DNA from: Opitutales bacterium
GTDB taxonomy: Bacteria > Verrucomicrobiota > Verrucomicrobiia > Opitutales > Seribacteraceae
Direction of reading: 5' to 3'
Assembly: GCA_028042835.1 (NCBI GenBank)
Contig: JAOFOL010000003.1
Span: forward strand, 22,310 to 86,309
DNA length: 64,000 nt
A program made the translations under genes and the position numbers. Numbering within the stretch: the stretch's first letter is position 1; each line of letters starts with the position of its first letter. The notes under the pieces are model-generated. The model was not told the DNA's origin, did no database searches, and was given only the letters and a program-made list of their open reading frames with translations. Positions 47,724-50,700 of this stretch are shown piece after piece.

Positions 47724-50700
47724 CTATTGCTTTTGGAAACCAACACGGAAGCCAAGGTGGGAGTTGCGGTAGCTCGGGGGGCTGTTGCCGCGCCTAGCAG
47801 AACGCAGGGCCGTCCCGCCGGAGTCCCAGGACCCACCCCGACTGACCCGACGCGAGCCCGAAGCCGGTCCGGTAGGATCAACCACCGGGTTGCCAGTTGG
47901 ATAGGCCGCCTGGTACCAGTCCGCGGTCCACTCAAAGACATTTCCGTGCATATCGAAAAAGCCCCACGGGTTGGCTGCATAGTAGCCCACATCTCGGGTC
48001 TGGCTCAGACCACTTACACTGTAATTAGCCCGTGTTGCATTAATATCATCATCCCACGAATACATTGTGGTCGTACCCGCACGGCAGGCATATTCCCATT
48101 GCGATTCGGTGGGCAACCCATAGGCCCAACCGGCGGGAATATTCGCGGATTGCTGGGCATTCAAACGGGTCAGGAAAATCTGAGCATCTGCCCAACTGAC
48201 TTTCTCCACCGGACGATTCGGATTGTTCGGCCATTCACTCGGCTTCGCACTGAGGCTGTCGGTGTTACCGGTCATCACCGCCTCGTACTGGGCCTGTGTA
48301 ACTTCGTATTTACCGAGGTAAAACCCTTTGGTTAAGGTGACATTGTGTTCGGTTTCATTCGTTCCCCTACCCGTTTCCGTGGTTGGACTGCCCATGGTAA
48401 AGGTGCCGGGTTCCACCCAGAGCATTTGCAACTGGACGGTGGCATTGAGCTCGGCGTTGTGCGTGCTCGCCTGTCCGACATTGACTGTTCGGGTGGCATT
48501 CGCCTCATTACTGGCTCCGTCGGATATGGAATAAGTTAAGGTGTACACTCCGGTGGTGTTGACATCCACCGTGCCGGTGATGGTGATGGAACTGGTCAGG
48601 TTGCCGTCGAGGCTGTCACTGGCGGTGGCTCCGGGATCCACCCAGGCGGAATTCTTCGCCTGGGACATATTGGCATCGCCCAGCAGGGTGAGTACCGGAT
48701 TAGTGGTGTCCATCACCATGACGGTGCGGGAAGCATTGGCCTCATTCCCCGCGGCATCCGCCACGGAGTAAGTTAAAATGTAGGTGCCCGTCGTGTTCAT
48801 ATCCACCGTACCGGTTACGGTGATGGAAGCGGTCAAATTTCCGTCCCGCGCATCGTGCCCCGCTGCGCCTGGCTCCGCCCAGGCTTGCCCGGCCTCACGC
48901 GTGATCCCAGCTCCCCCGAACAATTCCAGTTCGGGATTCGCCCCGTCTGGCTTGACTGCTTGGAAACCAACACGGAAGCCAAGGTAGTTGTTGCGGTTGC
49001 CCGGGGCGTAGCTGACGCGCAGAGCAGAACGCAGGAACGTCCCGTCGCTGCTCCAGGAACCACCCCGTACGACCCGATCCGAGCCCGATGCCGGACCCTC
49101 AGGATCGGTCTGGGCACCAGTAAGATAGTTCGCCTTCCAGTCGTGGACCCATTCCCACACATTTCCGTGCATGTCAAAAAAGCCCCATGGGTTGGCGGAA
49201 AACTGGCCGATGTTCACGGTTTGCTTGGAATCATTGCCGTCATTTCCACCGCCGTCCCAATTGTAATTGGCACGGGAGGAATTAATATCATTGCCCCACG
49301 AGTACGCCGTGGTCGTGCCTGCCCGGCAGGCATACTCCCACTCCGCCTCGGTGGGCAATACGTATTTCCAGCCGTTGGGCAATCGACCCGCGGACTGTTC
49401 AATCGAATTTAAACGGGTCAGAAAGATTTGGGCATCCTCCCACGAGGCTTTTTCCACCGGGCGGTTACTTCCTTTAAACTGGCTTGGGTCGGCGTTCAAA
49501 CCCTCGGAGTTTCCATTCATCACCGTTTGGTACTGTGCCTGGGTGACCTCGTACTTACCGAGGTAAAACCCATTGGTCAGGGTGACCTGGTGCTGGGTCT
49601 CATCCCCTCCCCGTCCAGTTTCACTGGTCGGACTGCCCATCGTAAAGGTGCCCGGCGGGCAGAAAATCATTTCCATACTGATCGAAGCCACCGTGTGTGC
49701 GCTCGGGGTGCCGTCCACCTGTAGAGGGGTGAGGGCGGAGGTGACCGAACCAAAGTCATTGCTCACCACCACACTGTAGTTCCCGTCGTGCAGAGAACCG
49801 TTCACATCCGCGATACTGAAACTTGGACCTGTTGCCCCCGCAATCGGTTGGCCATTGCGTTGCCATTGGTAAGTCAGGTACTTCCCCTGTGCCTGCGAGG
49901 TCAGGTTCATGCTCTGCCCGCTAAAGATCAGTCCGGGTGCTTGGGGTTGCAGGGTAATCTCCGGTTTTAAATACTTTAATATCTGCTCGTTCAACTGGGC
50001 AGTGGTGATGGTGTTTGCGGCGATCTCGGAGGAAGTGACCGTGCGGTTGAGGTCGGATAACACATCCTGTCCGAGCATCTGTTTTGTGACAGTCCTGTTA
50101 AGATCTGCTTTAATTTGTGAAGACAGATTCTGGTGCTTCACCGTGCGGTTAAGGTCCGCCAGTACATCCGCCGGTAGCATGTCGCGGGTGATTGGGCCAA
50201 TGTTTCCCCCACTCGCATTGCTTTCCAACTTTGATGTAACTTCAGGAGCGAGCATCGAAAGGGTAATCGGGCCAACCGGGGCGGAGCTATGATTTGCATC
50301 CAGTTTGGACAGCACATCTGAGGCTAGCATGTCGGAGGTAATGGCACCCGAAAGTTTTTCCGCAACCTTGGCAACTTTCGCCACCTCCGCAACCAAGGCC
50401 CGCGGAGTGGCGGTGATCAATTGATCGGGAGTGAGGTGCCGTAAGCCCTTGCCGTCCCCGTTATCAAAGCGGACTTTCAAATACAATTCATCATAATCCA
50501 AAAATAATTGCGGGGGTAAGGAATTCATCCCCTGCCCGCCAAGAAGAACATTATACCGCCCGTTATATATCTGTACCTGAATTGTGGAACCAGGAGTTTG
50601 TCCATTTCGCCACGCAGTCGTGCCATTTCCATCGTGCAAAGAAAAAGTGAAGTTCGCATCACCATGGTAATTCACTCCCCCAATCGAAACCTTTCCCGAA

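Follow-up and report, generated by a model that had tools for sequence, protein, structure and literature searches.

The DGR variable protein TvpA of Treponema denticola carries one VR per protein, located at its C-terminus. A 2012 description of Marichromatium purpuratum 984 placed three VRs within a single ORF made up of tandem FGE-sulfatase domains, with the authors leaving undecided whether this ORF is an artefact (PMC3521204). In 2024, the targets of DGR 4 and 5 in Thiohalocapsa PB-PSB1 were reported to contain three CLec domains in tandem that bear VRs and are naturally diversified; an internal VR is diversified in natural populations, the VRs of one target vary unequally, and the targets are served in trans from another locus (PMC10907252). 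Several VRs per ORF were counted in 31 of 271 multi-VR DGRs in a 2019 survey, which gives as an example a giant Pseudomonas adhesin with 21 VRs and few A-to-N changes (PMC6642488). Because of these few changes, the adhesin may represent simple repeats and not a working DGR.

From our analysis of a 64,000-nucleotide stretch of DNA (hereafter the window) of an uncultured Opitutales bacterium, we describe a chromosomal DGR in which, with high probability, one TR rewrites four or more VRs across two genes, giving two separately randomized lectin-like faces. The components lie on the minus strand in the order target gene (50786-47724), HRDC gene (47466-46975), reverse transcriptase (RT) gene (46944-45967), and template repeat (TR; 45926-45796). 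The open frame, Pfam, and AlphaFold2 models resolve the 1020-aa target protein into a hydrophobic N-terminus, a repeat-rich region, an Ig_3 domain (residues 274-343), FGE domain 1 (residues 372-609), two PF16403 Ig-like domains (residues ~640-770), and FGE domain 2 (residues ~790-1018); in Pfam, FGE-sulfatase (E 3e-91) and PF16403 were each found twice, with Ig_3 upstream. The protein is probably exported or secreted. The 325-aa RT (RVT_1, E 1e-18) carries the YMDD and GLPIGSLASQ motifs, the latter of which we take to be typical of DGR RTs, and its closest named relative (94% identical) is from an Opitutales MAG. Of the 27 members of the genus, many of which are incomplete MAGs, only three yielded the RT gene, and the RT is 94% identical in G008 and 93% in G016. 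The DGR-type RT lies near the TR, and the accessory protein, either Avd or HRDC in a DGR, is here an intact 163-aa HRDC-domain protein (Pfam HRDC, E 9e-21). An interspersed repeat starting TGTCATTGCGAGG is present on both sides of the DGR region (45150, 45286, 45459, 50966, and 51106) and also at 12416, and is possibly a mobile or REP-like repeat.

The locus resembles that of M. purpuratum 984 in having several VRs within a single tandem-FGE ORF served by one DGR (PMC3521204), whereas it differs in that two VR domains, and not three, are set apart by Ig-like modules, and in belonging to the Opitutales. A single protein with VR-bearing CLec domains in tandem is a feature shared with Thiohalocapsa PB-PSB1, as is the service of targets in trans by a separate locus. 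The targets there, however, combine vWA with three CLec domains and belong to MoxR/VMAP conflict systems (PMC10907252), whereas the target here shows an apparent signal sequence together with Ig-like spacers, and a conflict-system gene was not noticed beside it. An FGE/CLec-fold variable domain and an HRDC accessory gene are features held in common with TvpA of T. denticola (2y3c; PMC4891356).

The first-pass annotation had placed two VRs, one of them internal, on a single polypeptide, and our analysis bears this out, both being adenine-diversified from a single TR. VR1 (47735..47865, minus strand) closes the protein at residues ~974-1018 of 1020, while VR2 (48962..49092, minus strand) closes the upstream FGE domain at residues ~565-609; the distance between them, given earlier as ~360 residues, was measured at ~364 and spans the two PF16403 domains and the second FGE domain. 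Each VR is 131 bp long and matches the TR over 131 positions, comprising 32 A-sites (mostly in AAC codons of the TR) and 99 non-A sites. VR1 differs from the TR by 22 mismatches, 20 of them on template adenines (Fisher p = 2e-13, adenine vs non-adenine), and VR2 by 17, with 16 on template adenines (p = 6e-11), so that both TR-VR pairs are unlike at template adenines, as is characteristic of a DGR. Compared with each other, VR1 and VR2 are unlike at 25 of the 32 A-sites and alike at 98 of the 99 non-A sites. The one non-A mismatch common to both VRs is a C to T change near the 3' end, at a 12-nt tandem duplication of the TR (CTTCCGTGTTGG, about 45784-45815, minus strand) which is not present in the VRs. 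In the IMH/IMH* comparison, the 3' ends of VR and TR part after GTTGGTTT, where the TR has this duplication; the TR translation GFRVGFRVG of G008 implies the same duplication, and the TR of G016 is without it. With 17 variable codons per VR, ~6e17 proteins are possible.

Comparing internal with terminal FGE bodies gives 65-68% identity (~67% in the window target), whereas same-position bodies across species reach 93% (internal) and 89% (terminal); the FGE duplication hence predates the species. The MAG also holds a second target gene, on contig C50. Of the 99 non-A sites, its two VRs and the two of the window agree with the TR at 98 (97 for VR1) and with one another at 98 or 99; testing the non-A identity of VR1 and VR2 against the 70% identity across the 700 nt that adjoin them yields p = 5e-13. 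This concerted evolution, with VRs alike despite diverged FGE bodies, is the strongest evidence that both VRs are written from the TR, and copying from a shared template is the best explanation for VRs that are alike at all bases but the adenines. Independent diversification of VR1 and VR2, as proposed in the first-pass annotation, is supported by the sequence: both are mutated at ten A-sites and share the same base at only one, and over the six pairs among the four VRs the same base occurs at 20 of 66 doubly mutated A-sites, near the expected one third. The A-site contents of the VRs are thus unrelated.

It could be argued that the terminal VR alone is active and that VR2 is a fossil, duplicated along with the FGE domain that carried it. 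The two types of FGE domain, internal and terminal, are paralogues, so a VR could have come along, and VRs of the same protein may differ in activity (PMC10907252). However, a fossil would have collected non-A changes while the FGE bodies fell to their present identity, and instead VR2 matches the TR better than VR1 does, with a single mismatch outside the adenines; the same is true of the internal VR of the C50 gene. We therefore regard a fossil VR2 as very unlikely. Still less probable is ordinary gene conversion between the FGE domains, in place of retrohoming, as the process that keeps the VRs alike. Tandem paralogues within one gene can recombine, but VR1 and VR2 are unlike at most adenine sites vs one of 99 others, their doubly mutated bases rarely agree, and the homogeneity breaks off abruptly at the limit of the TR, identity being 70% immediately upstream. 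The adenine pattern rules out gene conversion as the main cause; it could still add shuffling. Taken with the mismatches to the TR, the substitution pattern establishes, at the level of sequence, that both sites have been rewritten from the single TR.

A further reading is that assembly fused two adjacent single-VR genes into one frame. In relatives, contig ends are frequently close to VRs, within 700 nt in 14 of the 15 listed, so such regions assemble badly, and MAG surveys consequently undercount targets of this kind; VR-proximal contig ends were seen in G002, G004, G005, G009, G011, G012, G015, G019, G020, G022, G026, and G027. On the other hand, the ORF check of the window gave zero internal stops across the 1020 codons, the Ig spacers match, and the tandem layout is repeated in the C50 gene and in G020, G034, and G001, with spacing steps of one Ig module; we consider the artefact hardly credible. 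The possibility of a split gene or missed stop, raised in the earlier annotation, was examined in the same way: the frame is uninterrupted, and the C50 gene, with two further VRs, has the order FGE-VR-Ig-FGE-VR in one open frame. As this gene is independent of the window, a split gene or sequencing error is unlikely.

The genus is rich in tandem FGE proteins. VRs lie 1227 nt apart in the window, some 981-1005 nt apart in C50, G020, G034, and G022, and 744 nt apart in G001, corresponding to an FGE domain plus 2, 1, or 0 Ig modules. The VR pair of G022 is unlike at 18 of 32 A-sites and three of 99 others. The pairs of G020, G034, and G001 are unlike at 18-26 of 99 non-A sites, from which it follows that these pairs are older or under another TR, and that not all relatives are currently rewritten by the window TR. 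In the sister species G016, at least nine VRs were found, three of them consecutive on C10, where three successive VR-bearing FGE domains adjoin the RT (C10:9544-11898, L033); this stretch is probably a single target gene with three VRs. When the G016 VRs, internal ones included, are compared with their own TR, template adenines account for 118 of the 134 substitutions and 25 of the 27 missing bases, and the length changes (L033, L038, L039, L043, and L058) are nearly all at template adenines. The missing bases most likely arose when one consensus was taken of a mixed population at hypervariable positions, in internal as well as terminal VRs; deletion or skipping by the RT itself is less likely. 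True frameshifts are also a less likely account of the length changes, as all nine VRs are affected and yet the RT and a neighboring 969-aa gene are intact.

The two FGE domains were modeled separately with AlphaFold2 (pLDDT 89, pTM 0.90), and TvpA (2y3c) is the best match of both by sequence as well as by fold. The VR residues align with the C-terminal region of TvpA and, by this homology, would be surface-exposed. In FGE domain 1, zero cysteines were found in the stretch aligned to the human FGE segment around C336/C341, and in FGE domain 2 cysteines are absent at the equivalent positions. With the catalytic cysteines missing, both domains are likely to bind rather than to catalyze. Bivalent or combinatorial binding by the two VR faces is a plausible prediction.

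We then surveyed the 80 loci with the most similar RTs, drawn from Verrucomicrobiota, Planctomycetota, Bacteroidota, and others, with the TR sought within 2 kb of the RT. An HRDC-like match is present at 78 of the 80, a TR/VR pair was recovered at 67, with more than one VR at 19, and 75 of 92 target stretches have their VRs within FGE domains. Two VRs within one ORF were found at none of the 67 related DGR loci (10-kb flanks, MAG contigs). The rarity asserted in the first-pass annotation hence stands within this RT clade and has to be relaxed for DGRs at large in view of the precedents (PMC3521204, PMC10907252, PMC6642488). The arrangement is real and rare, yet its principle is already described in purple sulfur bacteria; what is new here is the lineage (Opitutales) and the use of Ig-like spacers in multi-VR ORFs.

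Retrohoming at an internal site had been thought to make a special demand on the reading frame, and this idea did not hold. Homing replaces the sequence in place, the TR keeps the codon register, and the frame is thereby kept without any special device at an internal site. With every adenine randomized, the probability of no stop is 0.89, i.e., a stop in 11%; this low stop load matters for the internal site because a stop in VR2 would delete the entire second FGE domain. In BPP-1, efficient homing needs a hairpin downstream of the VR, and in phage-related DGRs the hairpin lies 4-34 bp after the VR (PMC3240598). A perfect 7-bp inverted repeat, CCCGAAC-TGGAATT-GTTCGGG (48915..48935, minus strand), lies within the coding sequence 26 nt after VR2 and is a possible candidate for a homing signal. 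It follows nine of nine internal VRs with a following Ig module and was not found after the terminal VRs listed. It is kept to the nucleotide across the genus and in G034, of the same family. The ten codons at the repeat (-2 to +7) are synonymously invariant vs nine of 26 other codons with an invariant amino acid (Fisher p = 4e-4), a count made by eye from a table of eight genes anchored on the motif, which because of this anchoring is a lead only. At related loci, a stem of at least 7 bp follows three of 88 VRs where 1.2 are expected, which lends little support to a general hairpin rule after VRs. It is doubtful that the internal VRs of the genus bear their own cis homing signal as a 21-nt DNA hairpin placed in the coding part of the Ig module that follows. 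If they did, with terminal VRs lacking the hairpin, one DGR would serve two kinds of target site, and the two faces of the receptor could be tuned separately.

In the DGR that we propose, TR RNA would be copied by an adenine-error-prone RT with the help of HRDC, and through target-primed copying the mutated cDNA would replace each VR in place. In each of the two genes, one VR would end an internal FGE/CLec domain and the other would lie at the C-terminus, and the two FGE domains, joined by Ig-like spacers, would act as separately randomized lectin-like binding faces. As far as sequences can establish them, the anatomy of the locus, the adenine-specific rewriting, the independence of the VRs, the way they evolve in concert with the TR, and the tandem layout seen in relatives are firm; the DGR is presumably active at present, and both faces may bind putative ligands or partners in adhesion or recognition.

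Proteins with two to three hypervariable faces, of which there are few cases, are thus extended to a second bacterial group, where several species have them in ordinary open frames, and for the Opitutales lineage this answers the doubt of 2012 that multi-VR ORFs are artefacts. The concerted evolution of VRs set against diverged FGE bodies is strong evidence of internal-site rewriting obtainable from sequence only. In essence, the genus offers a natural series of 0, 1, or 2 spacer modules and two or three VRs, which is good material on whether valency and spacing matter.
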